64,000 bases of DNA from Photobacterium toruni (GTDB taxonomy: Bacteria > Pseudomonadota > Gammaproteobacteria > Enterobacterales > Vibrionaceae). Where the stretch lies: NCBI RefSeq assembly GCF_024529955.1, contig NZ_AP024855.1, positions 620,001-684,000 on the forward strand, in the 5' to 3' direction. The notes below the pieces were generated by a model. That model saw only the letters and a program-made list of their open reading frames with translations, made no database searches and was not told where the DNA came from. Positions 9,077-60,661 of this stretch are shown in pieces. Positions within the stretch are counted from its first letter, which is position 1, and each line of letters opens with the position of its first letter. The position numbers and the translations under genes were made by a program.

Positions 9077-9095
9077 CACTCTCACTGGTTAACCT

Positions 9096-9128: not shown

Positions 9129-9149
9129 TCCTTTAAAATTTATCAAATT

Positions 9150-10472: not shown

Positions 10473-10497
10473 ATATATGAATACTTCTGGAGTCACT

Positions 10498-11478: not shown

Positions 11479-11483
11479 TCCTG

Positions 11484-15792: not shown

Positions 15793-17072
15793 TGCACCGA
15801 GCACACGCATCCCTTTTACTTATGCTTTTCGTAACCAGTTTTTCTCTTTATGCCAAAGAAGAACCAGTACCGACAATGCAAGAATTGATAAACAATAATA
15901 AAATTACGCTTACTAGTTGGCTAAGCTCGGAAAGCACAAACTTAGATAAGAAAAGACCAACCGTTATTGCTATTAACCAACCTGTTATTCTGACTATTGA
16001 TATTGCGACGCCTCGTTGGTTTACTGATGGAACCGTAATTGAAACCATTTCAATCCCAAACCTTATTGCTCAACAACGTAATTTACAAGCAACCAATTAT
16101 AGCCAGATGGAAGATGAGCAAACTTGGTCGCACCAACGTTGGGAGATTCCTCTTTTTGCTCAGCAATCAGGGCAATTTATCGTGCCATCTATCGGAATCA
16201 AGATTACCGTTTCGGTAGCTACAGGGAAAAATGTGCAAGGCGTATTATTTACCTCCCCACATCGTTTTTCAGTTCAGCGCCCAACAGCAAACATGACTCA
16301 TCCAGATGAATGGATTATTGCACCAGAAGCAGCACTAACCCAAGATTGGCAGGCTTCAACAGCCCAAAAAACTAACGTGGATATTGAAACATCAACATTA
16401 ACCGTGGGTGATGCAATAACTCGAACCATCACATTAAAAGTGCCCGATTCTCTAGCAATGCTATTGCCACCTTTGCTCCCTGCTACACGAAATAAAGCCA
16501 TTCTGCGTTATACCGATCCAATTCAACTCAAAGACATCAACAATAGAGGCGAACATACCGCACTTAGAAAAGAATCTGAAACTTATATTCTACAAACTGG
16601 TGGGGAAGTAATATTGCCAAGTGTTACGGTTCCATTTTGGAACACCACAACACAACAATCTGAAAAATTAGTATTAGAAGGGAAAACGATACGAGTTAAA
16701 CATACATTAATCTCGTGGCTAACCGCTTATTGGTCTATTATTTTTTGTTTGTTTTTTATCTCGACGATTATTTATCTATGCATAAAAAAATTAAAAAGCC
16801 ATTACCAATCTTACCCACTTCCAGATTGGTTATTATTCGCCCTATCCGTTCATAAATCCTCATGGTCAGAAAGTAGATTATATTTATATCGCCGATTATT
16901 TAATAAAACGGGACAGCTAGAATTAATAAAATATGCACTCAAAAACAAATCAAAAATAAATAATGAAAAAGTACAAATATCAACTTTAAAAAAATCATCT
17001 TTATGGAGAATATGGCTAAGTATTAGAAGGAGAAAGGAAGAAAGAAAAAATGAACAAACATACACATTATGA
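15792..17072 (+). CDS. BatD family protein
   Basis: The 426-residue protein starts with a signal peptide (1-21, cleavage after LYA), continues with a periplasmic beta-rich region, has one membrane helix near 309-328 and ends in a basic cytoplasmic tail. This is the BatD (DUF7939/oxygen-tolerance) architecture. It is the last gene of the moxR set, overlapping the previous stop by one base. It probably forms the periplasmic face of the MoxR-VWA membrane complex. The C-terminal tail is unusually lysine- and arginine-rich. No terminator with a clear stem was found directly after it. Confidence 0.85.
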   Translation: MHRAHASLLLMLFVTSFSLYAKEEPVPTMQELINNNKITLTSWLSSESTNLDKKRPTVIAINQPVILTIDIATPRWFTDGTVIETISIPNLIAQQRNLQATNYSQMEDEQTWSHQRWEIPLFAQQSGQFIVPSIGIKITVSVATGKNVQGVLFTSPHRFSVQRPTANMTHPDEWIIAPEAALTQDWQASTAQKTNVDIETSTLTVGDAITRTITLKVPDSLAMLLPPLLPATRNKAILRYTDPIQLKDINNRGEHTALRKESETYILQTGGEVILPSVTVPFWNTTTQQSEKLVLEGKTIRVKHTLISWLTAYWSIIFCLFFISTIIYLCIKKLKSHYQSYPLPDWLLFALSVHKSSWSESRLYLYRRLFNKTGQLELIKYALKNKSKINNEKVQISTLKKSSLWRIWLSIRRRKEERKNEQTYTL

Positions 17073-27934: not shown

Positions 27935-28669
27935 TTATTTTATTAGCTGACAACGGCCAAATGTTTGTAGGTTGTGAAAGTTAGGTTTAGGTGTTTTGGG
28001 ATCTATCCATGTCATCCACCCCATATCCAATTTTCCATCCGCTTGTTGCGTGAACTCTGCCCGCATCAAAGCACACAATAATTGTGTTTGTTGTTTATTC
28101 TGCCACAGCGATAAATCAGTTAATGTTTGTAGCGGTAATTTACCTTCAACGATATAACCGCTATCGGTTAAACTTGCTTTGGTTTCTAAGCCTTTCCATG
28201 TCCAATTACTGTCTAATGATGCCCGTTTTTTATTGACCATGTCATAGCTGGCTTCTGCACTAAACACGCGTGCTTTAGGATCAATTTCCATGGTGTAATA
28301 ACGCGATAATTGCGCATCTTTGGCAAGGAAAATTTCTACTCGATCAGAATCTAAAATAGCACGCTCAGGATCAGTCCCAATCGCTACATTTGCATCCACC
28401 ACTGTATATTGAAAATAGAGTGAATCTGCGTTCCACACTGCTTTAAATTCTGTTGCAGGCGCGGGAGTATCACGCCAAGGGAAAGTAAAATCAGTTAACT
28501 TTTGAGCTGATTTCCATTCATTATCATGGGCAATACCATCAATAACAGGAGCAACCTTGGCATGATTAATATTATATACCGCAGCCACGGAGGCACCTGT
28601 TTCAGCAACTACGTTATAACTTGCCATACTCGCCGTCACTGCGGCAGCTATGATAACTAATTTATTCAT
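27935..28669 (-). CDS. secreted CBM9-like carbohydrate-binding protein
   Basis: The 244-residue protein has a signal peptide (1-22, cleavage near VVA-ETG). The mature part starts with PVIDGIAHDNEWKSAQKLTDF, continues with FKAVWNADSLYFQYTVVD, and has a DRVEIFLA strand and a YTMEIDP segment. These are hallmarks of the CBM9-type/DOMON-like domain found in sugar-binding and haem-binding exported proteins. No catalytic domain is attached. It is the last gene of the minus-strand locus, set off from the GH105 gene by a terminator, so it is probably expressed at a lower or separate level. A role in binding the imported oligosaccharide in the periplasm or at the surface is inferred. Confidence 0.82.
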   Translation of the reverse strand: MNKLVIIAAAVTASMASYNVVAETGASVAAVYNINHAKVAPVIDGIAHDNEWKSAQKLTDFTFPWRDTPAPATEFKAVWNADSLYFQYTVVDANVAIGTDPERAILDSDRVEIFLAKDAQLSRYYTMEIDPKARVFSAEASYDMVNKKRASLDSNWTWKGLETKASLTDSGYIVEGKLPLQTLTDLSLWQNKQQTQLLCALMRAEFTQQADGKLDMGWMTWIDPKTPKPNFHNLQTFGRCQLIK

Positions 28670-28715
28670 TCCAATATCCTTATTTATTGTTTTTAGTTAA
28701 TCCACAATGAATCAG

Positions 28716-28747
28716 AAAAAAAGCCGATCTAACACGTAAATCGGCTT
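28716..28747 (-). terminator. terminator/attenuator between the GH105 gene and the CBM9-like gene
   Basis: On the minus strand ATCGGCTT arm 28740-28747 pairs with 28721-28728 over an 11-base loop and is followed by six or more T. It can limit expression of the downstream CBM9-like gene. Confidence 0.75.
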
Positions 28748-28791
28748 GAACTTACCTGACTTTCAACTTATTACATTGACGTTATTGTTAT

Positions 28792-29844
28792 TTATTCGAC
28801 TAGCTCAACGACAGCGGTTGCGGCTAATAAAAATGCGCCAGCACCGTAATCAATATTATGTTCAAAGGCGACATCACGCGGATTAAATGCAGGTAACTGT
28901 ACCCAACCGATCATGCCATTATCGTGAATACAACTTTGCAGTGCCGTCCATGAGGTTTCAACTACTGGCAGGTATATTTCAGCATCAAGATGACCGTGCT
29001 TAATTCCCCACGCTAAGCCGTAACAGAACAACGCCGTGGCACTGCTTTCTGGGGCGGGGAAATTTTCAGGATCAAGTAAACTTGTACGCCAAAAACCATC
29101 AGCTTGTTGATATTTAATTACTTCTGCAGCAAGTGAGGTAAACAACGCTAAATATTTTTCACGCTGCGGATAATCTTCAGGCATACGGGCTAATAAACGT
29201 GGCACAGCAGCTAATACCCAACCAATACCACGACTCCAGAAAACTTTATTACCGTTAGCTTCACGTAGTTCACCACCATTACCATCAGGAATATAACGAT
29301 AATCACGGTAAAATAAACCCGTTTCAGGATCGAGTAGATGATCTACCGAATCCCAAAATGCGGTATTCATATAATCAAGGTATTTAGGATCCCCCGTACG
29401 TTGGGTTAGTGCAGCAAATGCTGGCGGGGCCATAAATAAGGAATCACACCACCACCAATCTTTACGACCAGCTTGTGGACTATCAACCATAATATCTAAC
29501 GCTTTAATGGTTGGCTCTAACGCTTCAATTTGATCAATTAATGGATAAACATCAAGGTAGGCTTGGCAGCAAATATGATCATCAGCAAAACGCTCATTCG
29601 GACCAGATCTAAAACCAGTATGAAGGGTATAATTCATTACGCCATCAAGGTATTCATTATCATCTGTTGCTAACCATGCTGCAGAGACACATGACCAAAA
29701 TACGCCACGCTCCCAGTCAGTATCTTTAATAAAACGGGTTTTACCGCTGCGACGGACCACACTGCGGGTTTGATTTTGTGCTTGGTAACGATAAACACGC
29801 TTCATTGCCGTTAAAATCGTTTCTTTTGAACCTAATGCTGCCAT
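28792..29844 (-). CDS. GH105-type unsaturated uronyl hydrolase
   Basis: The 350-residue protein is an alpha6/alpha6-barrel glycoside hydrolase of the GH105/GH88 group. D129 in GRKDWWWCD and the ADDH at 87-90 fit catalytic-site segments, and RGIGWVLAAVPRLL is a conserved barrel helix. The enzymes hydrate the 4,5-double bond of an unsaturated uronic acid and so release it from lyase-made oligosaccharides. There is no signal peptide, so it works in the cytoplasm, after uptake. It follows kduD by 12 bases with AAGGAG seven bases before the ATG. The freed keto-uronate would go to KduI and KduD next door. Whether it prefers glucuronyl-GalNAc or rhamnogalacturonyl substrates cannot be told from the sequence. 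Confidence 0.9.
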   Translation of the reverse strand: MAALGSKETILTAMKRVYRYQAQNQTRSVVRRSGKTRFIKDTDWERGVFWSCVSAAWLATDDNEYLDGVMNYTLHTGFRSGPNERFADDHICCQAYLDVYPLIDQIEALEPTIKALDIMVDSPQAGRKDWWWCDSLFMAPPAFAALTQRTGDPKYLDYMNTAFWDSVDHLLDPETGLFYRDYRYIPDGNGGELREANGNKVFWSRGIGWVLAAVPRLLARMPEDYPQREKYLALFTSLAAEVIKYQQADGFWRTSLLDPENFPAPESSATALFCYGLAWGIKHGHLDAEIYLPVVETSWTALQSCIHDNGMIGWVQLPAFNPRDVAFEHNIDYGAGAFLLAATAVVELVE

Positions 29845-29856
29845 GATCTGCTCTCC

Positions 29857-30612
29857 TTAGCGTGCTAACCAACCACCATCAACAGCGATGGTGTAACCAT
29901 TAATATAATCACTCGCACTTGATGCTAAAAAGACCGCAGGGCCTTCTAAATCAGACGGTAATCCCCAGCGATTAGCTGGAATACGCTCTAAAATTGCCGC
30001 ATTACGATCAGCGTCGGCACGTAGTGCTTCAGTGTTATCTGTCGCCATATAACCTGGAGCAATCGCATTAACATTAATATTATATTCAGCGAGTTCAGTT
30101 GCTAATGCGCGGGTTAACCCCATAACTGCAGATTTACTTGCGGTGTATGACGGTACGCGAATACCACCTTGGAAAGATAACATTGAAGCGATATTTATGA
30201 TTTTGCCGCCATTACCTTGTTCAACAAAACGTTTAGCAACCGCTTGTGATAAGAAGAACAGTGTTTTTTGGTTAATATTAATCACATCATCCCAATCACT
30301 TTCAGAAAATTTAAGTAGATCTTGACGACGAATAATGCCAGCGTTGTTAATTAAAATATCAACATGCCCCATCACTTCTACTGCTTCTGCAACGATGCTT
30401 TCAAGCTTATCTTGCTGCATTAAGTTAGCGGTAATGTAATGAAATTTACGTCCTAATGCTTCTACTTGTACTTGAGTTTCAGGCGCTGCTTGATGACCAA
30501 TCCCAACAATATCAGCCCCTGCTTTTGCAAGTCCTAGTGCCATACCTTGACCAAGACCTGTATTACAACCAGTCACAATCGCAACTTTACCGCTTAAATC
30601 AAACATATTCAT
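29857..30612 (-). CDS. kduD: 2-dehydro-3-deoxy-D-gluconate 5-dehydrogenase
   Basis: The 251-residue short-chain dehydrogenase has the cofactor motif TGCNTGLG (14-21), the NNAG segment, and the catalytic S...YTASK triad; APGYMATDNTEALR and the end SDYINGYTIAVDGGW are typical of KduD. It reduces 2,5-diketo-3-deoxygluconate to 2-keto-3-deoxygluconate with NAD(P)H, the step after KduI in the breakdown of unsaturated uronic acids. AAGGA lies nine bases before the ATG. It sits between kduI and the uronyl hydrolase gene on the same strand. Confidence 0.95.
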   Translation of the reverse strand: MNMFDLSGKVAIVTGCNTGLGQGMALGLAKAGADIVGIGHQAAPETQVQVEALGRKFHYITANLMQQDKLESIVAEAVEVMGHVDILINNAGIIRRQDLLKFSESDWDDVININQKTLFFLSQAVAKRFVEQGNGGKIINIASMLSFQGGIRVPSYTASKSAVMGLTRALATELAEYNINVNAIAPGYMATDNTEALRADADRNAAILERIPANRWGLPSDLEGPAVFLASSASDYINGYTIAVDGGWLAR

Positions 30613-30693
30613 CGAGTTCTATCCTTGTATAGTAACGCTAACAATAGTGGCCAGCGTTACCAGCTAAATTGATTAATGATCAGCCACAGTAGC

Positions 30694-31524
30694 TTATTTA
30701 AGATCGCTCATCGCGACATGATCCATATCGTGGAAGGTTTGGTTTTCACCCACCATGCCCCAAATAAAGGTATACGCTGCAGTACCAACACCGGAGTGAA
30801 TTGACCAACTAGGACTAATCACAGCTTGTTCATTGCGTACCACAATATGGCGCGTTTCTTGAGGCTCACCCATGTAATGGAACACGATGTTGTCTTGGCT
30901 CATATCAAAATATAAATACACTTCCATGCGACGCTCATGGGTATGACATGGCATAGTGTTCCACAAACTACCTGCAGCGAGTTCCGTCATGCCCATTAAT
31001 AACTGACAGGTTGGTAACACTGATGGGTGTAAGTACTTATAAATAGTACGAACATTACAGTTTTCTTGACTACCAATTTGCTCTGGCGAGGCTTCTTCAC
31101 GGGTAATCTTACGGGTTGGGTAACAGTGATGAGCAGGGGCACAATTTAAGTAAAAACGTGCAGGTTGCTCGGCAATCACACTTTCAAACCGAATATCTTT
31201 AGCGCCCATACCAACATAAATAGCTTCACGTGAACCAATCTCAAAAGTTTCACCATCAACAATCACTAACCCTGGTGCACCGATATTGATCACACCTAAT
31301 TCGCGACGTTGTAAAAAGTAATCAACCCCAATTTCTTTACCGCCTTCAAACTCGATAGCGGTTGTGGTCGGCACTGCAGCCCCCACAATAATGCGATCGA
31401 TATGGCTGTAAGTAAGGTTGATCTCACCTTCTTGAAACATATTTTCAATTAAGAATTGCTCACGAATACCCGCAGTATCTAATTGCTTGGCATGCTGACT
31501 ATGAATTGGTTGACGAATTTCCAT
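30694..31524 (-). CDS. kduI: 5-dehydro-4-deoxy-D-glucuronate isomerase
   Basis: The 276-residue cupin-type enzyme is the full length of KduI. The metal-binding histidines lie in the [18 protein letters not shown] segment. The end [23 protein letters not shown] is characteristic. It isomerises 5-keto-4-deoxyuronate, the form taken by a released unsaturated uronic acid, to 2,5-diketo-3-deoxygluconate. GAGG lies six bases before the ATG. It precedes kduD and follows agaA by about 78 bases, joining the uronate branch to the amino-sugar branch in one transcript direction. Confidence 0.97.
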
Positions 31525-31602
31525 GAAAAACCTCTTAAATCATTACATTATTCAGTACCCACACCACAAAAATACGGCATAAACACTGACGAAGTATTGC
31601 TA

Positions 31603-32757
31603 TTAATTTGATGCTGGGTAATACCATTCACCATCAATTAACGTTGCTTGAATTTCAAATTGTGTATTAAGTACGGCAAAACTGGCGTTATATTTAGGAG
31701 CGATAGCACCTAGTTGATCGTCAATCCCCAAATACTTTGCAGGGACTGAGGTTGCCATCTGGATTGCTTCCCATTCAGGTACATTGGCTAACAAAATCAT
31801 ATTGCGAATAGCTTGATCTAAACTGCAAGTGCTTCCCGCTAATGAACCATCATCAGTACGAGCTTCACCATTAGTAACGGTTACCATCTGCGCACCAAGT
31901 TGGTACTTACCATCATTAAGACCACCAGCACGCATACAATCAGTGATTAATGCCATACCTTGGTAGCCCTTGATACGATAAGAAAGTTGCATCATTACAG
32001 GGTGAACATGAATACCATCAGCAATCAGTTCAACTAACATATCGTGATAAAGCACAGCCCCTGCACAACCCGGTTCACGATGATGCAAACCACTCATGCC
32101 GTTAAATAAATGCACTCCACAATCAGCACCGTGTTGATGCGCTTGGGTCACTTGTTCAAAATTGGCATTAGTGTGTGCTACTGAAGTTTTTATACCGTTA
32201 TCGGTTAACCATTGAATAGCTTCATTAGCACCATCATATTCAGGAGCAAGGGCTACGCGTAATAATGAATCTGCAGCAACTTCTTTTAATTCTGCTAACG
32301 CCGCAATGGTTGGCGCGGTTAAATATTGAGTTGGGTGTGAACCTCGGTGTGTGGCTGTAAAGTAAGGTCCTTCAAGAAAGCTGCCTAATAACCTTGCACC
32401 TGATTGTTGCGGTTGCTCACAAAAATGACGAACTTGCTGTAAAGCAGACACAATGTCTAACCATGGTGCGGTTACTGTGGTTCCAACCCATGCCACCACC
32501 CCCGTCGCTGGCAATGCTTGGGCTATGGTTTGTAACGCTGCTGGCGTTGCATCCATAACATCAGCGCCTGCACGACCATGAATATGAATATCAATAAAAC
32601 CAGGAACTAATGTTTGGTCTTCTAATTCAATCACTTCACAATCGAGAGGTCGGCTATCAGTAACGCTTTCAATCTTACCGTTATTCACGACTACATAGTG
32701 GTTATAACGGATCCCAGAAGGAGTGAATACTCGTTGCGGATGAAGTGCAAAGCGCAT
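31603..32757 (-). CDS. agaA: N-acetylgalactosamine/glucosamine-6-phosphate deacetylase, AgaA/NagA family
   Basis: The 384-residue amidohydrolase has the HIHG metal motif (PGFIDIHIHGRAGAD), the EGPY segment, later histidines in AHTNANF and GVHLFNGM, and the catalytic aspartate in LITDCMRAGG. It removes the acetyl group from an N-acetylhexosamine 6-phosphate in the cytoplasm. NagA and AgaA are hard to separate by sequence; the position between the Aga-type PTS and agaS/agaZ favours GalNAc-6-phosphate. It starts two bases after the IIA stop codon, so the two are translationally coupled. Confidence 0.9.
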   Translation of the reverse strand: MRFALHPQRVFTPSGIRYNHYVVVNNGKIESVTDSRPLDCEVIELEDQTLVPGFIDIHIHGRAGADVMDATPAALQTIAQALPATGVVAWVGTTVTAPWLDIVSALQQVRHFCEQPQQSGARLLGSFLEGPYFTATHRGSHPTQYLTAPTIAALAELKEVAADSLLRVALAPEYDGANEAIQWLTDNGIKTSVAHTNANFEQVTQAHQHGADCGVHLFNGMSGLHHREPGCAGAVLYHDMLVELIADGIHVHPVMMQLSYRIKGYQGMALITDCMRAGGLNDGKYQLGAQMVTVTNGEARTDDGSLAGSTCSLDQAIRNMILLANVPEWEAIQMATSVPAKYLGIDDQLGAIAPKYNASFAVLNTQFEIQATLIDGEWYYPASN

Positions 32758-32759
32758 AA

Positions 32760-33203
32760 TTACAGCCCGTCTTCACATTCAAATTCAGTCGGCTGCGCCA
32801 TCATACTATTAAGCTCACGACGCATGTCTTTCATGCATGACATACCAATATCAAGCAGCGTATCAACAAGCTCGGTTAAATCAGCATCATCACGTTCAAA
32901 AGCAGCATTGGCGATCATCGGTAAATTAGCGCCACCAATAAGTTCAATATTCGGGGTATCCATCAATATTGCTAACGCACGATTAGCAGGGGAACCGCCA
33001 GGAATATCAGTTAAAAACAACACGCCATCGCCACTATCTACATCAGCAGCTGCTTGACGTAATGCAAGTTCTAACTCATCAGTAGACATAGTTTCAACAA
33101 AATCTACATACGTCATTTGCTGTTGCTCACCCGCGATAGCACGAACAGCCGATTCCATACCCGATGCAAAGTTAATATGACCTGAAACAACGATACCAAT
33201 CAT
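32760..33203 (-). CDS. PTS mannose/sorbose-family IIA component
   Basis: The start at 33203 has AAGGA seven bases upstream; ten extra codons upstream are not supported. The 147-residue protein has the phosphorylated histidine H9 in VVSGHINFA and the FLTDIPGGSPANRA segment of the EIIA-Man fold. It accepts phosphate from HPr and passes it to IIB. It lies after IID and before agaA in the operon and corresponds to AgaF of E. coli. Confidence 0.92.
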   Translation of the reverse strand: MIGIVVSGHINFASGMESAVRAIAGEQQQMTYVDFVETMSTDELELALRQAAADVDSGDGVLFLTDIPGGSPANRALAILMDTPNIELIGGANLPMIANAAFERDDADLTELVDTLLDIGMSCMKDMRRELNSMMAQPTEFECEDGL

Positions 33204-33288
33204 GATTCTTTCCTTGAAAATAAGGGGGAGCACCGTCCCCCTTGATATTATTGATGATGACTCTCATCACCACTAAGCAATGGTCTTA

Positions 33289-34182
33289 TTACAAAATACC
33301 CAGCATATGACCAACAACACCTGCCGCTAGTGTGCTGAAAATCAACACTGGCGGTTTAGCCCAGAACCCTGTGCCTTTCACCATTTTGAGCATGAAGAAC
33401 ACCAGCATCAGTGGCAGAATATTTGGCATCACCTTGTCAAATAATGCGGTCTGCAAGTCCACCACTTTTCCCCCCAGTTCGAGACTGAGGGTGGTCTGCA
33501 CTTTAATAAAGGTCGCAGAGAGCGCACCAATAACAAAGATACCCATAATATTGGCGGCTTTTGCCAACTTTTCAGTTGAATCGCTCATGTTAACCATCGC
33601 GGCAGTACCCGCTTTGTAACCCATGAACATCAAACCAAAGTAAACGGCAAAGTGAACAATTTGGTACAAGAAGAAGAACACAAATGGACCTGCAATCGAG
33701 CCTTCCATTGCAATTGACGCACCTAACGCTAGGGTTAATGGCATCAATGTCATGTGGTCGATGGCATCACCGATACCGCCAGTTGGTCCCATGCCAGCAA
33801 CTTTCATTACGTTAACCGTTGATGGTTTTTCTTTGTTTTCTTCCATCGCAATCGCTGTACCTAATAAGAAGGTAAACAGCTTAGGTGAAGCATTGAAAAA
33901 CTGAAGGTGGTTCTTTAATGCTTTGGCTAAATCGGCTTTGTTATCACCGTGAATTTTTTTCAGTGCTGGAATAATTGAGTAAGCAAAACCACCCGCTTGC
34001 ATACGTTCAAAGTTAAAGTTACCTTCCATAAATAGACCGCGGATAGAACACATCCAAAGGTCTTTCTTAGTGATCACTTTACGTGGCGTGGTATCTTCAT
34101 ACGCATCGATATCATCAACCAAACTTACATGTTCTTCCGTGTTTTTATCGCGAAGTGTTCCCGCAGTGATATCAGATGCCAT
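33289..34182 (-). CDS. PTS mannose/sorbose-family IID component
   Basis: The start at 34182 (GGGGA eight bases upstream) gives 297 residues and an 11-base overlap with the IIC gene; a 25-codon longer frame would overlap by 86 bases. The protein has the IID signature: ITKKDLWMCSIRGLFMEGNFNFERMQAGGFAYSI near the N-terminus, a VAGMGPTGGIGDAIDHMTLMPL segment, and C-terminal membrane helices. With IIC it forms the membrane channel of mannose-type PTS systems. It corresponds to AgaE. Confidence 0.92.
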   Translation of the reverse strand: MASDITAGTLRDKNTEEHVSLVDDIDAYEDTTPRKVITKKDLWMCSIRGLFMEGNFNFERMQAGGFAYSIIPALKKIHGDNKADLAKALKNHLQFFNASPKLFTFLLGTAIAMEENKEKPSTVNVMKVAGMGPTGGIGDAIDHMTLMPLTLALGASIAMEGSIAGPFVFFFLYQIVHFAVYFGLMFMGYKAGTAAMVNMSDSTEKLAKAANIMGIFVIGALSATFIKVQTTLSLELGGKVVDLQTALFDKVMPNILPLMLVFFMLKMVKGTGFWAKPPVLIFSTLAAGVVGHMLGIL

Positions 34183-34945
34183 CTTCAAATTCCCCAGGTT
34201 GATTGTTGTTAGAGCCGCCGTTGTTTGAACCGCTAAAGAAGTAGTACAGTGCTGCAATTGAGGCGCCGATAATCGCGACAGCCATAATTGGTAGTTTTAA
34301 GTAAGTTGTCATTACAAAGCCAATGAAGAACACCCCAGCCACTTCTTTTGACCACATAATTTTCAACAACATAGCGAAACCAATCGCAGGAACCATCTTG
34401 GCACCAATACCTAAACCTGTTAGCAGTGCTTTGGGTGCGTTTTCATCAATCCAAGTTGCAGCATGCTCTCCAAAGTAAACGGTTACAAAAGCAACTGAGG
34501 CATACAACATCGCACGTAATAATATTGTGACAATTAACAGTTTATCGATACCCGCAGAATCTCCACGCTCTGCAAAGCGATCCGCTTTACCCATTGTGAA
34601 TGATGTCATTGCGAAGAAGCCAATAACCAACATTTGCATCATTACTGCAATCGGCATACCGACGCCCATTGCCACTTCTGCTGACTGACCCGTCATTACT
34701 GCAAAAGCAACCGCAGCAATCGTACCTAACGTTACATCTGGTGGCTGAGCCCCCGCGTTAGGCACTAAACCTAACCAAGCAAGTTCTAATGTCGCACCAG
34801 CAATCAAACCAATTTGCATGTCACCCATGATCAAGCCCACAACCGGACCTGTAATAAGCGGACGGTGAATATTCAATGCAACATCGTATTTATCGATACC
34901 ACAAAAGAAAGCCCACACCGCTACTAACGCAGCTTCAAAAAACAT
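34172..34945 (-). CDS. PTS mannose/sorbose-family IIC component
   Basis: The 257-residue membrane protein has about seven to eight hydrophobic helices. GPVVGLIMGDMQIGLIAGATLELAWLG followed by GAQPPDVTLGTI is the conserved IIC motif of the mannose/GalNAc class. It is the main sugar-translocating subunit. Compared with E. coli it corresponds to AgaW/AgaC. It lies 42 bases after IIB and overlaps IID. Confidence 0.92.
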   Translation of the reverse strand: MFFEAALVAVWAFFCGIDKYDVALNIHRPLITGPVVGLIMGDMQIGLIAGATLELAWLGLVPNAGAQPPDVTLGTIAAVAFAVMTGQSAEVAMGVGMPIAVMMQMLVIGFFAMTSFTMGKADRFAERGDSAGIDKLLIVTILLRAMLYASVAFVTVYFGEHAATWIDENAPKALLTGLGIGAKMVPAIGFAMLLKIMWSKEVAGVFFIGFVMTTYLKLPIMAVAIIGASIAALYYFFSGSNNGGSNNNQPGEFEDGI

Positions 34946-34987
34946 GATTTATTCCTTTTTACACGTTTGGCGTTTGACTATCGCGAT

Positions 34988-35488
34988 TTAAGCAGCGCTG
35001 GTAGCCAGTTCAAGTACATCGATTGGTTTCTGATCAGGCGTATTTTGAATAGTACAAGTTACTCCTTTCGCGACCATGCGTTCAAAAGCGTTAATGTCTT
35101 TATCATCGACAGAAACTGTCTTATTAATCTGACGCTTACCTTCGTGATAATGCATATTACCAACGTTGCAATGAGTAATAGGCACCCCACCTTCGACTAA
35201 ACGCGCCACATCAGTTGGGTTATTACACAACACAAAAATCTTTTGTTGCGGAGAAGCTTTACCTATAACATCAATTGTTTTTTGGATTGAGAAGAAACGT
35301 ACTGCGTATTCTCCCCCTGCTGATGCTTTCATACCTGCTTGCATAAAAGCCGCATTTGGGCCTTCAGCTGCATCATCATTGGCAACCAAAATAAGGTTAG
35401 CGCCTGAATGTTTACCCCAAGTAATACGAATTTGACCATGTAGCAAACGTTCATCAATTCGTGTCCATACAATGTTTGGCGTTGTCAT
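34988..35488 (-). CDS. agaV: PTS mannose/sorbose-family IIB component
   Basis: The 166-residue protein has the phosphorylated histidine in IDERLLHGQIRITWG, the IIB-Man signature (H17). It phosphorylates the incoming sugar during transport by IIC/IID. The order IIB-IIC-IID-IIA and the neighbours agaS, agaZ and agaA match the N-acetylgalactosamine PTS (AgaV class). In this locus the carried substrate may be an unsaturated uronyl-GalNAc disaccharide rather than free GalNAc; that is inference from the hydrolase genes. Confidence 0.9.
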   Translation of the reverse strand: MTTPNIVWTRIDERLLHGQIRITWGKHSGANLILVANDDAAEGPNAAFMQAGMKASAGGEYAVRFFSIQKTIDVIGKASPQQKIFVLCNNPTDVARLVEGGVPITHCNVGNMHYHEGKRQINKTVSVDDKDINAFERMVAKGVTCTIQNTPDQKPIDVLELATSAA

Positions 35489-35508
35489 GATTGTTCTACC
35501 TTTCGTAA

Positions 35509-36681
35509 TTATTTCAAATAATCATATAAATAATGGATAGTAACTCCTTGTACTACACGGTTAACTTCGCCAGTAGGACATGGGTTATCAGGTGTATTTC
35601 CTAGTGCAAGTGCGCGATGGAACGCGTACATTTGCGCATACAGCATATAAGGAAAAAGTAATTCAACATCTGTCGCGGTTTCCATGCCAGGGACATGAAT
35701 AACATCAGCACTTGCTTCAATCTCATCCACTTGCGCTGTAATCGCTACCACTCGAGCTGCAATATTATCGCGACAAAGTTCAGTTAACAGATCTAAGTCA
35801 TATTTACGGGTATATGGGTCGTTACTTATGAACACCACAATCATCGTATTTTGATTCACAATAGATTTGGGTCCATGGCGGAACCCTAATGGAGAATCAA
35901 ATGTTGCAACGACTTTACCTGAAGTTAGTTCAAGTAATTTCAATGCCGATTCTTGGGCTAAGCCTTGTAAACCACCACTGCCTAAATAAATAACCCGTTC
36001 AAGTTCTTGATTAGCAGTATCCTTTATTTTGGTATTTAAATCTTTGATCAAACCCACAGAACACTTACAAATGCTTTCGATATCTTTCGTGTAATCGTTG
36101 CCATACATTAGAACCGAAAAAGCTGCTACCATCATTGATGAAAAACTTGATGTCATGGCAAAAGATTGATCATTGGTTTCTGCTGGCATTAGTAATGCAA
36201 ATGATTGCTTATCATTTTCGCAACACTTATATAACTTTCCATCTGCATTACAGGTCAACACTAGGTGGAAACATTCCGTTAAGGTTTGATTAGCAAGCTC
36301 AACCGCAGCCACACTTTCAGGACTATTACCAGAGCGCGCAAACGACACTAATAACGTTGGAATATTTTCAGCAAAACACTGGCTAGGATTAGAAACAATA
36401 TCAGTGGTTGAGATAGCTTCTACACGACGTTGTAAACGCTGAGAAAGGCCTAATGCTAATGAACGACCAGCGAATGCTGACGTACCCGCCCCGGTTAAAA
36501 CAATGCGTAAATTAGAGTAACCATAAACCTTATCCATAAAGCATTTAATTTGCGCTTCACACTCACGCGTAATTGCCGCTGTTTGCGCCCAACAATCAGG
36601 TTGCTGGTTGATTTCTTTCGCGGTCCAATACCCCGAGAAACGTTGAAGTTCAGCTGCTGAATAACCTAAATATTGTTCCAT
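35509..36681 (-). CDS. agaS: AgaS-family sugar isomerase/deaminase (SIS domains)
   Basis: The 390-residue protein has two SIS domains (LTGAGTSAFAGRSL near residue 60; YLGSGGLQGLAQESALKLLELTSGKV near 225) and the FRHGPKSIV active-site segment. AgaS acts as galactosamine-6-phosphate deaminase/isomerase, giving tagatose 6-phosphate and ammonia after AgaA. Length and neighbours agree. It begins four bases after the agaZ stop codon, so it is co-translated with agaZ. Confidence 0.94.
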   Translation of the reverse strand: MEQYLGYSAAELQRFSGYWTAKEINQQPDCWAQTAAITRECEAQIKCFMDKVYGYSNLRIVLTGAGTSAFAGRSLALGLSQRLQRRVEAISTTDIVSNPSQCFAENIPTLLVSFARSGNSPESVAAVELANQTLTECFHLVLTCNADGKLYKCCENDKQSFALLMPAETNDQSFAMTSSFSSMMVAAFSVLMYGNDYTKDIESICKCSVGLIKDLNTKIKDTANQELERVIYLGSGGLQGLAQESALKLLELTSGKVVATFDSPLGFRHGPKSIVNQNTMIVVFISNDPYTRKYDLDLLTELCRDNIAARVVAITAQVDEIEASADVIHVPGMETATDVELLFPYMLYAQMYAFHRALALGNTPDNPCPTGEVNRVVQGVTIHYLYDYLK

Positions 36682-36685
36682 GTAT

Positions 36686-37981
36686 TTAAACCTCTGCGAT
36701 TAATTTTTCAGTACATGCTTGAGAGTAAGCACGTAAAACTTGACGAATAGTGTCTAATACCAACACCTTAGGATCTGATGAGATTAAGCCTTCACGCAGA
36801 TGTTGAAATTGCTGTGGCATATATTGACTAAGAAGCGGTAACGGAATCTCAACTCGAGATAAATTTCTAAATAAGGTTGCTTGAGCTTGATTGATCACAC
36901 TATCAGGCCAGTAATAACGCATACGATCGCTAAAGCTAAAGCAGCGTGAGAAGCGTTGTTCAGATTCATTACCGTGATAATATTTTTGCCAATGCTGCGG
37001 CGCTTCACACATTTGTGCTTCAATACATTCACGCAAATTAGAACAATGTGCTTTAGGAATAATTTCAGCTTCAATTTCACATAAATTAAATAGCGCTTCA
37101 CGCATCGCAAAAGTCAAAGCTGGGCCGACTTTTAAAATAGCAAAGTGATCTTGTACTAATTGACGATAAGCGGCATGAGTTTGATAGTCTGTCGAGTGTG
37201 CTTCAAATACCATCTGGGGAAAACTATCAACCACATGACTTAATTGATTTGCTTTCTCTGGGCAATAATCAATAACGCCGGTGTGATCAAATTCAACCCC
37301 AGGTTGCACCACTAATCCAATCACACGCGTCCAACAATCAGCGATACCCGCCTCAGTAAACGCTCGTTGATGAGTTTCGATTGTTTTCATTGCAGCTTGC
37401 GGAGAGGTAACTTCAACGGTATTTAATGTTTCAGCAGCTCCACCAGGTACAGGGACTTCAGTACCAATAACGTAAACTAAATCACTATAACCAAAAGATT
37501 CTATCGCTGTTTTTTCAGCAATCGCACCTAAACGTGCAGCACGCTGAGCAACAATTTCATCACAAAGAGGAATCGGATCATCAGCACAAGACATGCTGCA
37601 ATCTAAATGGATTTTCTTAAAACCAGCAGCGACATAAGCAGCAATTAAATCATCGGCATTTAACATCGCAGCTTCAGCAGAGAGATGTTGCCAACGGTTA
37701 GGACCTAAATGATCGCCACCTAAAATAAGATTATCGGTAGGAAAGTGGAATTGTTCAGCCATCGCTAATACAAAATGACGAAAATCAATCGGAGTCATTC
37801 CGGTGTAGCCACCAAATTGATCCACTTGATTTGATGTCGCTTCGATTAATAAAACTGAACCATCATCCAACGCTTGAGAAAATGCAGCCTCAATGACAAG
37901 CGGGTGTGCAGAACAAACAGCATAAATACCATTGTTACCGCCTGTTTTATGACGTTGAACGAGAGTTTGTAGGGTGTTCAT
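36686..37981 (-). CDS. agaZ: tagatose-1,6-bisphosphate aldolase non-catalytic subunit, AgaZ/KbaZ type
   Basis: The 431-residue protein matches GatZ/KbaZ across its length: [16 protein letters not shown] near the start, [31 protein letters not shown] and [11 protein letters not shown]. KbaZ stabilises the catalytic subunit (KbaY/GatY) that splits tagatose 1,6-bisphosphate to dihydroxyacetone phosphate and glyceraldehyde 3-phosphate. No catalytic subunit gene is in the window. It is the first gene after agaR, 49 bases downstream, and its ribosome binding site lies inside a strong hairpin. Confidence 0.93.
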
Positions 37982-37987
37982 TAATTA

Positions 37988-38023
37988 ACTCCATAATCAT
38001 CATCTGTGACATGATCATGGAGT
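37988..38023 (-). promoter_or_regulatory. RNA hairpin covering the agaZ ribosome binding site
   Basis: In the agaR-agaZ gap the transcript contains a 13-base arm (38011-38023) that pairs fully, with one G-U wobble, with 37988-38000 over a 10-base loop. The second arm includes the GGAG at 37989-37992 that serves as ribosome binding site for agaZ (ATG at 37981). No T-run follows, so it is not an ordinary terminator. It may hide the binding site, mark an RNA cleavage point, or make agaZ depend on translation arriving from agaR. Confidence 0.7.
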
Positions 38024-38030
38024 CAATAAG

Positions 38031-38807
38031 TCAATGCTCTTTTTCGACGATAATAACTTCAACTTTCATTTCACGAAGACCAGCTAAATAATCTTCAGGA
38101 ATGCCCGCATCTGTTACTAGGATATCAATATTTCCGAATTCACGAATCATATGGCAGCTACGTTTACCAAATTTGGTCGAATCAGCGACTGCAATCACTT
38201 GTTCAGAAATTTCACACATTAAACGATTGAGGCTCGCCTCTTGCTCACTGTGCGTGGTGATACCTGCTCGCAAGTCAAAGCCATCAACTCCTAGAAAAAC
38301 TTTATCAAAACAAAAGTTTTTAAGGCCAGCTTCTGCTTGTGAGCCTGAAAAAGATAACGCTTCTTTACGAAGTACGCCACCTGACATTAATACTTCAACA
38401 CCGGGTGCTGAAGCCAACTCCATAGCCACATCCAGACCATTGGTCATAACAACAACATTTTCCATACTTTTTAAGCTGGCTGCGATTTCACGCGTTGTTG
38501 TCCCTGAATCTAAAATCACAGTGTCGCCATGATGAATAAGCTTGGCAGCAGCTTGGCCAAGGAGCGATTTCACTCCCGCATTATGCCGACGCTTTTCATG
38601 AATGGTTAATTCAGCAATCACACCTGAGTTAGGAATTGCTGCGCCATGAGAGCGCACAACATAACCATTCTTTTCCAAGAAACTCAGATCACTGCGAATA
38701 GTGACACTAGATACATTAAATTTTTCAGCGAGATCCTCGACACGGGCTTTTCCTTCTAGATTCACCACGTTGACGATTTCCATTCGCCTTTCAATTGCAC
38801 TTTTCAC
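38031..38807 (-). CDS. agaR: DeoR-family repressor, AgaR-like
   Basis: The 258-residue protein has the DeoR winged helix (residues 1-57; VEDLAEKFNVSSVTIRSDLSFLEKNG) and a C-terminal sugar-phosphate sensing domain with DSGTTTREIA, TNGLDVAMEL, MSGGVLRKEALSFSG and LGVDGF segments, as in AgaR and GlpR. It lies at the head of the aga operon and is divergent from the sulfatase-porin genes. The gap it faces is full of CTTTC repeats like those in AgaR operators. The likely inducer is a galactosamine 6-phosphate compound or a phosphorylated disaccharide; this is inferred from the family. Confidence 0.93.
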   Translation of the reverse strand: MKSAIERRMEIVNVVNLEGKARVEDLAEKFNVSSVTIRSDLSFLEKNGYVVRSHGAAIPNSGVIAELTIHEKRRHNAGVKSLLGQAAAKLIHHGDTVILDSGTTTREIAASLKSMENVVVMTNGLDVAMELASAPGVEVLMSGGVLRKEALSFSGSQAEAGLKNFCFDKVFLGVDGFDLRAGITTHSEQEASLNRLMCEISEQVIAVADSTKFGKRSCHMIREFGNIDILVTDAGIPEDYLAGLREMKVEVIIVEKEH

Positions 38808-38838
38808 TTTTGTCTCCTTGTGAAATCAATCAAAATTA

Positions 38839-39127
38839 CTTTCATTTGATTTCGAAATAAGCTTACACCTAAAAAATAAAGCCACAATGCACTAAGACAA
38901 AACTTTTGATCTCTTTCACATTCTTTCGTTATCTTTCACAAAAACTCATGCATACTTGCGTAAGTCTTTCTATCATATAGAACGAAAGTCAATAAACCAA
39001 CCTTTCATCCTTTCAATTTATAAAATAGCACTGAGGCTCCATAATATTTACTGCAATAAAACAAGTGATTACATTATTTTGCTTTCATTTTCTTTTATGT
39101 GATCGATTACACAGTCATAAAGCTTTC
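38839..39127. promoter_or_regulatory. array of CTTTC repeats, candidate AgaR operators
   Basis: In this divergent gap CTTTC occurs at 38839, 38913, 38923, 38933, 38966, 39002, 39010, 39082 and 39123, and its complement GAAAG at 38984. Those at 38913, 38923 and 38933 are spaced exactly ten bases, one helical turn. Known AgaR operators contain repeated TTTCRTTT elements, and TTTCATTTGATTTC (38840-38853) and TTTCATTTTCTTTT (39083-39096) fit this well. The array would control both agaR-agaZ and the sulfatase-porin genes. Confidence 0.7.
39098..39113 (+). promoter_or_regulatory. CRP-like site upstream of the Tat sulfatase gene
   Basis: TGTGA-TCGATT-ACACA matches the CRP consensus TGTGA-N6-TCACA at nine of ten positions. 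A TACGAT at 39135-39140 would be a -10 box, giving a start near 39147 and placing the site centre near -41.5, the class II activator position. Confidence 0.65.
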
Positions 39128-39202
39128 ATTAACTTACGATACGAAGCAAATCAAAGGTACATAATCCAATTGTTTCTATTTATCATTAATAAGGATTCGT
39201 TG

Positions 39203-40756
39203 ATGTCTATCTCACGCAGAGGATTACTGAAAGGTATGGCAGCCAGTGGTGCTGTTGCTGCAACCTTATCAGCTGGTTATACCCAAGCTGCAACTGCATC
39301 TACATTAAGCTCAAAGAGATCATTAAAAAAACCCAATTTAGTCATTATATTTCCTGATGAATTTCGAGCTCAGGCATTAGGGTTTATGCAACAAGATCCA
39401 TCAATGACCCCTAATATTGATAAGTTTGCTCGCCAAAGTGCAGTATTACGTCAAGCTGTTTCTAACTTTCCACTATGTACTCCATTTCGTGGCATGTTAA
39501 TGACTGGGCAATACCCTTACCGTAATGGTATTCAAGGCAATAGCCACACTGGTGTTGAAGGCCAATTTGGTGGTAAAGATTTTGGTATTGAACTAAAGAA
39601 AAGCACCTTAACTTGGTCTGATGTTTTGAAAAAGCAAGGCTATAGCATGGGCTACATTGGCAAGTGGCACTTAGATGCACCACAAGCGCCTTTCATTCCT
39701 AGTTACAATAATCCCGCAGAAGGACGTTATTGGAATGATTGGACAGCCCCAGATCGTCGCCATGGCTTTGATTTCTGGTATGCCTATGGCACCTATGATA
39801 AGCATATGACGCCAATGTATTGGACCAATGATACTACCCGCGATAAGCCACTACGAATAAATCAGTGGAGCCCTGAGCACGAAGCAGATATTGCTATTAA
39901 ATATTTACGTAATGAAAATGGTCAATACCGTAAACAAGATCAACCGTTTACGTTAGTGGTTTCTATGAATCCGCCCCACTCGCCTTATGATCAAGTACCA
40001 CAAAAATATTTAGATCGCTTTAGTGGTAAAACATCACAGCAATTAAATACTCGTCCAAATGTACAGTGGGATAAAGCCTATCAAGAAGGCTATGGTCCGC
40101 AGTTTTTCAAAGAATATATGGCGATGGTTAATGGAGTTGATGAGCAATTTGGACGCATTGTTGATGAATTAGATCGCCTTAATCTTACCGAAGATACCTT
40201 AGTGGTGTTTTTCTCTGATCACGGCTGTTGTATGGGTTCAAATGGTAACCCAACCAAAAATGTTCATTATGACGAAGCAATGCGTATTCCAATGATTTTC
40301 CGTTGGCCTGGCAAGCTTAATCCACAACAAAATGATCTGTTATTTTCAGCACCCGATATTTACCCAACCATGCTGGGCTTAATGGGAATGGAAGATTTGA
40401 TCCCTGATACCGTTGAAGGCACTAACTTCGCCAATACGCTCCGTGGTATTGAGGGTGATAGTAAACCAACCTCGCAATTTTATACTTTTATGCCTTATGG
40501 CGGTCAGTCATATGGGCGTCGAGGCATTCGCTCACAGCGTTATACCTTAATGATTGATAGAAAAATTGGAAAGCCACTGACTTATGTGTTGCATGACAAT
40601 CAAATCGACCCATACCAAATGGATAATATTGCAGCCACTAATCCAATGCTTATCGATAAATTAATTACCGAAGAATTAATACCATGGCTTGAGCACACTG
40701 GCGATCCATGGCGACCAACAACCGTACCGGCACACAGTGCCAATGCGTATTTATAG
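39203..40756 (+). CDS. Tat-exported sulfatase, Cys-type
   Basis: The start at 39203 has AAGGA seven bases upstream and yields 517 residues; the longer frame before it has no support. The N-terminus S-R-R-G-L-L-K (4-10) followed by a hydrophobic stretch and TQAATA is a twin-arginine signal, so the enzyme is folded before export. The sulfatase motif is C-T-P-F-R at 92-96; C92 would become formylglycine. Metal residues are seen in FPDEFR and FFSDHG. The position divergent from agaR and upstream of a KdgM porin points to removal of sulfate from an oligosaccharide in the periplasm. Which sulfate (4-O, 6-O or 2-O) is not determinable. The maturase at 9.2 kb could serve it. Confidence 0.92.
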   Translation: MSISRRGLLKGMAASGAVAATLSAGYTQAATASTLSSKRSLKKPNLVIIFPDEFRAQALGFMQQDPSMTPNIDKFARQSAVLRQAVSNFPLCTPFRGMLMTGQYPYRNGIQGNSHTGVEGQFGGKDFGIELKKSTLTWSDVLKKQGYSMGYIGKWHLDAPQAPFIPSYNNPAEGRYWNDWTAPDRRHGFDFWYAYGTYDKHMTPMYWTNDTTRDKPLRINQWSPEHEADIAIKYLRNENGQYRKQDQPFTLVVSMNPPHSPYDQVPQKYLDRFSGKTSQQLNTRPNVQWDKAYQEGYGPQFFKEYMAMVNGVDEQFGRIVDELDRLNLTEDTLVVFFSDHGCCMGSNGNPTKNVHYDEAMRIPMIFRWPGKLNPQQNDLLFSAPDIYPTMLGLMGMEDLIPDTVEGTNFANTLRGIEGDSKPTSQFYTFMPYGGQSYGRRGIRSQRYTLMIDRKIGKPLTYVLHDNQIDPYQMDNIAATNPMLIDKLITEELIPWLEHTGDPWRPTTVPAHSANAYL

Positions 40757-40799
40757 CCGTTCCAAAAATAACCTGTAATACCATTTTTTATTCATTTGA

Positions 40800-40826
40800 C
40801 GCTTTCTCTATTGAACAGAGAAAGCG
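40800..40826 (+). other. intergenic hairpin between sulfatase and porin genes
   Basis: CGCTTTCTCT (40800-40809) pairs perfectly with AGAGAAAGCG (40817-40826) over a seven-base loop. No T-run follows, so it is more likely an mRNA processing or stability element than a terminator. It also contains a CTTTC on each strand. Confidence 0.55.
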
Positions 40827-40858
40827 CACCAAAACTCATACTAAATTAAGGACAATCA

Positions 40859-41587
40859 ATGAATACCATCACTAAAGTAATCCTTGCGACGACCCTTTTA
40901 TCAGCAACAAGTTTTAGCTATGCCAATGATTACAAAACCACGATTGAATATCGCCATGAATATCGCGATGGTACGAATCGTCATGGTGATCGTGTAAAAG
41001 CCTTTTTAGATACAGGTAAAAATATTGGTTTTGAATTAGACGCTCGTTATAACAATGATCAACTCAACACCATGTTTGATGGTATGACTATGAACGGTTC
41101 TGAGTTTTCAACCTATTATTATAAGAAATTAACTGACAATATTATGGGTATCGGTGGTCTTTCTTTTGATTTTACCCCTGCCGGACTCGTCTATGTTCCT
41201 TATGCACGTTTAAATTACCGTTTTGATAATGGTATTCGTGTTCAAGGTCGTTATAAGTGGAAATTCTGGGATTATAATCAACAAAACCAAAACAAAGAGA
41301 ATTACGTCTCTAAAATCCAAGAGGTCGATTTCTGGCTAGGCTACAATACTACCAATTGGGACTTCCAATATGAGTTCCAAATTTGGAAAGAAATGGAAAG
41401 TAAAGCACTGCCACAATTTGATAATAAAGATACAAACTATCTGCATAACTTCCGCTTAATGTACACCTACAAAACCGTTGAAGGCACAATGTGGCGTCCC
41501 TTCGTAGAAGTCGGTAATGTGAGTCAAAGTCGCTACACTGATAACCGTCAAACACGTTACCGCATGGGTATTAAATACACATGGTAA
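40859..41587 (+). CDS. KdgM-family oligosaccharide porin
   Basis: The 242-residue protein has a signal peptide (1-22, cleavage after SYA) and a 12-strand porin pattern: YKTTIEYRHEYRDGTNRHGDRVKA at the start, alternating aromatic strands, and the terminal GIKYTW ending in an aromatic residue, as outer-membrane barrels do. This is the KdgM/NanC family of monomeric porins for acidic oligosaccharides. AAGGAC lies before the ATG. Located behind a sulfatase and facing the Aga/Kdu genes, it probably lets unsaturated acidic oligosaccharides into the periplasm. Confidence 0.92.
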   Translation: MNTITKVILATTLLSATSFSYANDYKTTIEYRHEYRDGTNRHGDRVKAFLDTGKNIGFELDARYNNDQLNTMFDGMTMNGSEFSTYYYKKLTDNIMGIGGLSFDFTPAGLVYVPYARLNYRFDNGIRVQGRYKWKFWDYNQQNQNKENYVSKIQEVDFWLGYNTTNWDFQYEFQIWKEMESKALPQFDNKDTNYLHNFRLMYTYKTVEGTMWRPFVEVGNVSQSRYTDNRQTRYRMGIKYTW

Positions 41588-49257: not shown

Positions 49258-51888
<2,631 letters not shown>

Positions 51889-60305: not shown

Positions 60306-60333
60306 GTATTAGATTGTAATTTAAGGAAATATC

Positions 60334-60645: not shown

Positions 60646-60661
60646 GATAAGGAATCACAAC

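Follow-up and report, generated by a model that had tools for sequence, protein, structure and literature searches.

A probable chondroitin/dermatan sulfate locus in Photobacterium toruni with a mannose-family phosphotransferase system proposed to import the unsaturated disaccharide

We analyzed a 64,000-nucleotide stretch of the Photobacterium toruni genome (NZ_AP024855.1, positions 620,001 to 684,000; hereafter the window), which lies on a contig (C2) of 1.16 Mb in a genome of 4.5 Mb. The locus considered here (window positions 27935-41587) encodes a complete mannose-family phosphotransferase system (PTS), with its enzyme II components EIIA, EIIB, EIIC and EIID, together with enzymes for N-acetylgalactosamine (GalNAc) and for unsaturated uronic acids. 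Profile searches with the window proteins found every gene that a first-pass annotation had named there, each in its place, and its set of an Aga-type PTS, aga and kdu genes, a GH105-type hydrolase, a CBM9-like protein, KdgM and a twin-arginine (Tat) sulfatase was thus recovered, with NCBIfam and Pfam cut-offs passed. Twelve genes form a minus-strand run that begins with agaR and ends with the CBM9 protein, and the sulfatase and KdgM genes lie on the plus strand, divergent from this run. We consider it likely that an AgaR-controlled chondroitin/dermatan sulfate (CS/DS) pathway has its uptake and catabolic half here, and that the PTS would import and phosphorylate the disaccharide of unsaturated uronate and GalNAc (deltaUA-GalNAc). 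The features of the locus are as follows (scores written a/b are bits against the curated NCBIfam or Pfam cut-off; PDB, Protein Data Bank).

27935..28669, minus strand: secreted CBM9_1-domain protein, accessory (Pfam CBM9_1, 119 bits; signal-peptide-like N-terminus by eye)
28792..29844, minus strand: GH105-type unsaturated uronyl hydrolase without signal peptide, predicted to cleave deltaUA-GalNAc(-6P) (Pfam Glyco_hydro_88; PDB 4ce7)
29857..30612, minus strand: KduD, DKII reductase (NCBIfam NF006528 and TIGR01832 above cut-off, 436 bits vs 430)
30694..31524, minus strand: KduI, DHU isomerase (NCBIfam NF002091, 454/250)
31603..32757, minus strand: AgaA/NagA-type GalNAc-6-P deacetylase (nagA TIGR00221, 317/226; 41% identity to the E. 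coli aga-cluster deacetylase)
32760..33233, minus strand: PTS EIIA, AgaF type (NF040761, 159/130)
33289..34257, minus strand: PTS EIID, start probably internal, overlapping the EIIC end (Pfam EIID-AGA, 267/25)
34172..34945, minus strand: PTS EIIC, AgaW type (NF040757, 328/300)
34988..35488, minus strand: PTS EIIB (NF008508, PRK11425, 185/180; LLHGQ motif)
35509..36681, minus strand: AgaS, galactosamine-6-P deaminase/isomerase (TIGR02815, 570/529)
36686..37981, minus strand: AgaZ/KbaZ, non-catalytic tagatose-1,6-bisphosphate aldolase subunit (NF012002, 766/707)
38031..38807, minus strand: AgaR, DeoR-family repressor (NF040755, 414/260)
38913..38937, plus strand: two overlapping AgaR-like sites CTTTCN5CTTTY, the second being CTTTCGTTATCTTTC (motif scan)
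39082..39096, plus strand: third AgaR-like site, CTTTCATTTTCTTTT (motif scan)
39203..40756, plus strand: sulfatase, predicted to be Tat-exported, with Cys motif CTPFR, CS/DS 4-O-sulfatase type (PF00884; PDB 6j66)
40859..41587, plus strand: KdgM-type outer-membrane porin (PF06178, 123.5/22; PDB KdgM 4fqe, E 7e-17)

For comparison we used 79 named loci, fetched via GH105 from the best 80 of 136 matches. The gene set recurs in 15 named genera, and this recurrence is beyond chance. The EIIA, EIIB and EIIC proteins of the window pass NCBIfam cut-offs for GalNAc transporters; EIID scores 249/500 on the AgaE equivalog model, yet passes the Pfam EIID-AGA model, and it is the only member of its family in the genome. 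The motifs that we take to hold the active-site histidines are SGH in EIIA and LLHGQ in EIIB. Among the relatives, LLHGQ is present in 61 of 71 EIIB open reading frames (ORFs) and [ST]GH in 63 of 64 EIIA ORFs. For the CBM9 protein, the PDB search gave no relative better than E 0.5.

The hydrolase matches Pfam Glyco_hydro_88 (250/26.6) and is the sole such match in the genome. Among solved structures, the ulvan enzyme 4ce7 of family GH105 is its nearest match, and both the GH105 fold and the nearest solved relatives agree with membership in this family (predicted model, pLDDT 90.3). Pfam does not split GH88 from GH105, and the near relatives 4q88 and 5noa bear GH88 in their title or molecule name. 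Assignment as a GH88 unsaturated glucuronyl hydrolase (UGL) was considered and rejected: there was no UGL among 10 PDB sequences at E 0.001, and UGL structures rank under all GH105 ones listed. The acidic motifs ADD and W[WY]WxD (positions 87-89 and 134) are present in the window hydrolase and in 77/77 GH105 ORFs of the fetched loci; by analogy with UGL and YteR, we assume that these residues act in the active site. The hydrolase shares 95-97% identity with its counterparts in Photobacterium malacitanum, aquimaris and phosphoreum. Neither inspection by eye nor hydropathy shows a signal peptide in it, in line with the cytoplasmic location first proposed for it, so its substrate should be inside the cell.

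The best PDB match of the sulfatase is 6j66, a CS/DS 4-O-endosulfatase (993 bits; the next reaches 417), which is presumably the Vibrio sp. FC509 enzyme. This close match to a characterised enzyme, together with the CTPFR and Tat motifs, predicts CS/DS 4-O-sulfatase activity. In Vibrio sp. FC509 and Photobacterium sp. FC615, marine enzymes of this type remove the 4-sulfate from the unsaturated disaccharide (PMC6581707; this and the other articles given by PMC number are cited from the portions of their text that were available). The window gene most likely starts at ATG 39203 (MSISRRGLLKG...) and not at GTG 39065, as in the ORF list. Its export, as first annotated, gains support from the Tat motif, which opens all 16 complete orthologous sulfatase ORFs of the fetched loci. 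For the Photobacterium sp. FC615 sulfatase, the available text reports that SignalP found no signal peptide (PMC6581707).

The window locus contains no lyase, catalytic partner of AgaZ, KdgK or Eda, an absence that was not remarked on in the earlier annotation. All of these are grouped 173 kb away on the same contig, with further genes:

within C2:821381-832298: PL8 lyase, chondroitinase-type (Lyase_N, Lyase_catalyt, Lyase_8), lipoprotein-like start
within C2:821381-832298: anaerobic sulfatase maturase (anSME) and second sulfatase
C2:827965-829524: DUF2264 protein
within C2:821381-832298: tagatose-bisphosphate aldolase subunit (TIGR01858, 504/444)
within C2:821381-832298: KdgK-like kinase (357 bits, under the cut-off of 400)
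within C2:821381-832298: Eda

A genome search for PL8-type lyases, which the first-pass annotation had proposed as a check, found two, the one above and one on contig C1. The latter (L017:17075-19000 and L018:1-606) stands beside phage-tail-like genes and an integrase, judged by eye. Another genome of the genus (G107) has two PL8 genes 4.4 kb apart, near DUF2264. Parts of the two gene sets adjoin in P. lucens (L026), Vibrio LaRot3 (L028), Budvicia (L043) and Psychromonas hadalis (L050). The second sulfatase (L016:1220-2878) has an unnamed sulfatase and carrageenan sulfatases as its top PDB chains (185-175 bits), and scores 132 bits against the N-acetylgalactosamine-6-sulfatase 4fdi. That it acts on 6-O-sulfate is our guess from the pathway.

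The two loci share an operator-like motif. CTTTCN5CTTTY is present in three copies ahead of agaR and the sulfatase gene, and in three more in the gap between the PL8 and maturase genes of the distant locus. A stricter 15-base form, CTTTCRTTNTCTTTC, has 2 matches in 4.5 Mb, one per gap (reversed control, 0); since the motif was read off these same two gaps, these counts speak for its rarity and not for AgaR binding. Of 63 relatives that have AgaR, 50 carry the motif no more than 500 bases ahead of agaR, at 2.4 per kb vs 0.10 per kb over those loci. This placement is partly independent support for a putative shared switch. The E. coli aga region (14 kb) has a single match, in the nagA-agaS gap, as the window locus has such sites; 13 of 200 shuffles also matched. 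The motif was first prompted by what we take to be the E. coli AgaR consensus. The available text of the literature on an AgaR site did not yield such a consensus.

The family sample comprised 247 Vibrionaceae genomes, with a close GH105 defined as one over 500 bits. Such a protein is present in 42 genomes, and 9 more have weak matches only. PL8 was found in 37 of these 42 genomes and in 26 of the 205 others (Fisher p 1.1e-21, treating genomes as independent of kinship, as do all statistics on this sample), and for 31 of 46 GH105 copies there is a PL8 no more than 50 kb away on the same contig. AgaS identity divides the sample sharply: GH105 is present in 38/38 genomes whose AgaS reaches 60% or more, and in 1/37 whose AgaS is more distant throughout. 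Where a GH105 genome has no near AgaS (4 cases), its only GH105 copies are of 66-71% identity, which we take for hyaluronan-type.

The PL8 co-occurrence and the 6j66 match favor the chondroitin/dermatan target named in the first-pass annotation, and they bear on a different reading of the locus as one for pectin, rhamnogalacturonan or ulvan fragments, with GH105 acting on uronyl-rhamnose. The ulvan enzyme as closest solved GH105, and the name of KdgM, given for oligogalacturonate, speak for such substrates. We rejected this reading as highly improbable because of the chondroitin-type 4-O-sulfatase, the GalNAc enzymes in the operon and the co-occurrence with PL8; in addition, loop 317-332 is kept in PTS-linked GH105s and is different in 4ce7.

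In the fetched loci, the PTS and the hydrolase behave as one unit, as initially proposed. GH105 and EIID are on the same strand, 477-4694 bases apart, in 77/77 loci with EIID. By identity thresholds chosen after seeing the identities (with PL8_C1 set at 31% identity or more), 63 of the 79 loci are chondroitin-type, and 62 of these 63 have a sulfatase, maturase or PL8 in the fetched DNA. Ten others are hyaluronan-type and keep the PTS and GH105, with no tblastn match at E 1e-8 to AgaA, AgaS, AgaZ, either sulfatase or the maturase; they hold 1 copy of the AgaR-like motif in ~200 kb vs 0.10 per kb in GalNAc-type loci. That Aga enzymes and sulfatases come and go while the PTS and GH105 stay argues that the PTS carries a uronyl-hexosamine disaccharide, not only GalNAc. 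In trees that were both quick searches, with long-branch warnings for EIID, the GH105s of hyaluronan type group as a single clade (SH-aLRT 99) and so do their EIIDs (98).

Some loci depart from these two types. L073 has hyaluronan-type EIIC/EIID, then chondroitin-type EIIB/C/D with KduI, KduD, KdgK and Eda, and no Aga enzymes. Nine Pasteurellaceae loci (L056-L058, L082-L086, L094) have a LacAB/RpiB-like isomerase in the place of KduI (one of the nine has both) and a LacD-type tagatose aldolase. The Salmonella arizonae and diarizonae loci (L048, L049) have a chondroitin-type PTS, GH105 and both sulfatases, and AgaA, AgaS and AgaZ were not in the fetched DNA.

It could be argued that the PTS takes only free GalNAc, the disaccharide entering via another carrier or being split outside, and that the Aga-PTS is a neighbor recovering the monosaccharide. 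The E. coli EII proteins for GalNAc are indeed related (IIB 50%, IID 42% identical), and three window components pass the curated models of that system; GalNAc may therefore be a cargo too. GalNAc induces the Proteus vulgaris chondroitinase (PMC9067506). On chondroitin sulfate C, growth of a P. mirabilis ptsH mutant is poor, which its authors ascribe to free GalNAc (PMC13289894); such a mutant has lost every PTS. These observations weigh against the proposed pathway, and so do several others. Some import persisted in a Streptococcus agalactiae PTS mutant, for which the authors invoke leaked UGL and another PTS (PMC6837340). We came across no assay, of transport or of enzyme activity, for this PTS or GH105. 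Five of the 42 GH105 genomes lack PL8, and in P. toruni itself the AgaZ partner and the lyases are unlinked to the window locus. The motif is upstream of the anSME or PL8_ABC genes of relatives in only 14/47 regions, and in 0/8 upstream regions of Proteus PL8_ABC. The locus sample, being fetched via GH105 from the best matches, leans to close kin, and the quick trees also count here.

On the other side, GH105 lacks a signal peptide, the ten hyaluronan-type loci retain the PTS and GH105 with no GalNAc enzymes found, the window genome has a single EIID, and the loci offer few other candidate carriers. ORF clusters occurring in at least 6 of the 79 loci and having at least 3 predicted spans, a count that leaves rarer or unlinked carriers outside, were EIIC, EIID and three others, one YgjV-like (in 13 loci), one DUF1275-like (in 8) and one with 12 spans (in 8). 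The DUF1275-like and 12-span proteins are confined to the eight closest relatives, and nothing in the window matches the latter. Together, these data make a PTS for GalNAc only unlikely. The YgjV-like small inner-membrane protein (L039:11185-11718 and 12 other loci) occurs in both chondroitin- and hyaluronan-type loci.

If the PTS does import and phosphorylate deltaUA-GalNAc, its GH105 partner would meet a phosphorylated substrate. Conserved in 73-76 of 76 PTS-linked GH105s, and not found in the PTS-less L096 and L097, are R27, R31, R37, K40, R79, N321, H329 and N330. In L096 and L097, respectively, R27 is replaced by K and Q, R31 by K and K, R79 by A and E, N321 by D and D, H329 by D and D, and N330 by T and T, while a shorter hairpin leaves a gap opposite R37 and K40. 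4ce7 and 5noa differ from the PTS-linked enzymes at 321, 329 and 330, and 4ce7 also at 40 and 79; the aligned fragments of both end before the rest of the hairpin. Eight positions separate chondroitin- from hyaluronan-type GH105s, five of them within residues 25-41 (hypergeometric p 7e-6, for a range picked after seeing the positions), which form a predicted hairpin in the model (E28-30, E36-38). The hairpin and loop kept in PTS-linked GH105s would fit the reading of a phosphorylated amino sugar; this phosphate-site idea is built on conservation.

The PTS might instead move the disaccharide unphosphorylated, with a cytoplasmic kinase acting on GalNAc after cleavage. A precedent is the mannose-class PTS AlfEFG of Lactobacillus casei, which moves fucosyl-GlcNAc without phosphorylation (PMC6109692), and one of the four ROK-family proteins in the genome could be such a kinase. 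However, the L. casei case is tied to fucose, which has no C6 hydroxyl (PMC6109692), and GalNAc has one; in the nearest functional analogue, a mannose-class PTS phosphorylates galacto-N-biose (PMC6109692). None of the four ROK genes is in either locus, and R37, K40, R79 and H329 are common to PTS-linked GH105s and not in the two PTS-less relatives. Unphosphorylated transport is therefore quite improbable in our view.

The DUF2264 protein of the distant locus suggests an extension of phosphorylating import. By fold it is a relative of beta-D-glucuronate dehydratase (former GH154). Of 10 residues mutated in BcGDH, 7 align as identical (N176, N177, W178, F181, Y229, R285, Y289; the numbering offset of 5 was worked out in this analysis), E74 and R78 are matched by spacing only, through 8oi4, which carries the depositors' name beta-galactosidase, and Y354 is unmapped. 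The matching residues are invariant across 19 aligned orthologues. DUF2264 is present in 40/42 close-GH105 family genomes vs 24/205 others (p 7.7e-27). It is conceivable, though we hold it only tentatively, that one PTS imports both unsaturated and saturated uronyl-hexosamine disaccharides as 6-phosphates, that a cytoplasmic DUF2264 dehydratase unsaturates the saturated one, and that the single GH105, with its phosphate-reading hairpin and loop, splits both. Counting slightly against this scheme, the PTS-less relatives have a gap opposite R37 and K40 and a lysine at R31. If true, it would be a phospho-disaccharide funnel without beta-glucuronidase (searched for as family GH2 only), common to chondroitin- and hyaluronan-type loci of Vibrionales, Enterobacterales and Pasteurellales. 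The cytoplasmic dehydratase is the part of this system that could be new. In the Bacteroides caccae chondroitin locus PUL25, as proposed for the P. toruni genome, a glucuronate dehydratase is paired with an unsaturated uronyl hydrolase. The cloned forms of the two began at residues 24 and 31, respectively, so both are presumably exported there, and the available text describes no PTS or phosphorylated intermediates (PMC12269599).

Much of the arrangement has counterparts elsewhere. The P. vulgaris operon is reviewed as containing chondroitinases, a sulfatase, an unsaturated hydrolase and a putative PTS (PMC9067506). Like the P. toruni system, this operon and that of P. mirabilis ATCC 29906 (L068) have lyases, a sulfatase or maturase, a uronyl hydrolase, a putative PTS and monosaccharide genes. 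L068 is 69% (GH105) and 87% (EIIB) identical to the window; its PTS-GH105 operon adjoins a PL8 53% identical to that of the window genome and a second PL8-like gene (25%). Its lyase genes follow immediately after the GH105 gene, on the opposite strand, whereas in Photobacterium the lyase, aldolase subunit, KdgK and Eda are 173 kb off. P. mirabilis PMI2135-2138 are annotated agaF, agaD, agaW and agaV (PMC13289894), which fits the L068 EII genes by name. The E. coli aga cluster (L099, L100) shares AgaR, KbaZ/KbaY, AgaS, deacetylase, EIIA, EIIB and EIID at 39-61% identity; unlike the window, it has no uronyl hydrolase, lyase or sulfatase annotated and serves the monosaccharides GalNAc and galactosamine.

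Streptococci have a glycosaminoglycan (GAG) PTS cluster in which, as here, a mannose-family PTS stands beside a cytoplasmic uronyl hydrolase and DHU isomerase and reductase, and there the PTS was shown with a mutant to serve the hyaluronan disaccharide (PMC6837340). This cluster differs in acting on hyaluronan with UGL rather than GH105, in having a host without an outer membrane and, in the available text, in naming no GalNAc enzymes or sulfatase (PMC6837340). In Vibrionaceae, a hyaluronan locus of Vibrio alginolyticus LWW-9 also has PL8 lyases, a GH88-annotated hydrolase and a four-part PTS proposed as disaccharide importer, but it differs in its substrate and its glucose-PTS annotation, and import was proposed from annotation (PMC8222515). 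A similar hyaluronan locus with a PTS is known from annotation in Enterobacter asburiae (PMC11432990). The chemistry proposed here resembles that of the L. casei gnb operon, where a mannose-class PTS phosphorylates a hexosyl-GalNAc disaccharide, followed by a phospho-glycosidase, GalNAc-6-P deacetylase and GalN-6-P deaminase; that operon differs in using galacto-N-biose and a GH35 enzyme, in its Gram-positive host and in having no uronate branch (PMC6109692). The streptococcal UGL we take to be a GH88 enzyme.

In the pathway that we propose, PL8 lyases encoded elsewhere in the genome would cut chondroitin to unsaturated disaccharides, KdgM would pass oligosaccharides into the periplasm, and the Tat 4-O-sulfatase and the second sulfatase would strip the sulfate. 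EIIABCD would then import deltaUA-GalNAc, phosphorylating C6 of GalNAc, and the cytoplasmic GH105 would release unsaturated uronate and GalNAc-6-P. The uronate would proceed via KduI and KduD, then KdgK and Eda, to pyruvate and glyceraldehyde-3-P, and the amino sugar via AgaA, AgaS, a kinase and KbaY/AgaZ to triose phosphates. The scheme draws on gene identities, linkage, N-termini suggesting export or its absence, the rare motif shared by the two loci, and the way Aga and sulfatase genes come and go while the PTS and GH105 stay; from these we infer the PTS cargo, the phosphorylation site, the sulfatase positions and AgaR control.

Other genes of the window are also of interest. At 7556-17072, another sulfatase with its own radical-SAM maturase (Pfam) is followed by MoxR ATPase and vWA-type genes (by eye) in what looks like one operon. 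A YgjK/MGH1-like glycosidase with a lipoprotein-like start is at 49258-51888, and a further sugar locus at 59001-63014 has a lactose/cellobiose-type PTS EIIC, a GH4 glycosidase and a LacI-type regulator (by eye).

The window genome has the gene content of a Gram-negative GAG-PTS locus, with PTS, uronyl hydrolase and DHU enzymes together and a lyase in the genome. The locus is real and well conserved, and the main line of the first-pass annotation is most likely right. Its remark that such a PTS would be unusual in Vibrionaceae did not hold: the orthologues in 42/247 family genomes and the published V. alginolyticus locus (PMC8222515) make it less unusual, and the scheme is largely known from relatives. 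We found no open-access paper testing a chondroitin-disaccharide PTS in a Gram-negative. If the proposal is true, such transporters are misnamed. The glycosaminoglycan disaccharide would then be the cargo of the P. mirabilis transporter, which is named as a putative PTS for N-acetylgalactosamine (PMC13289894), and also of its relatives in Providencia, Edwardsiella, Yersinia and Photobacterium. It would offer an alternative reading of the growth defect of the P. mirabilis ptsH mutant on chondroitin sulfate and a reason why 6-O-sulfate has to come off outside the inner membrane, and phosphorylation of a lyase product by a Gram-negative PTS would become a testable question.

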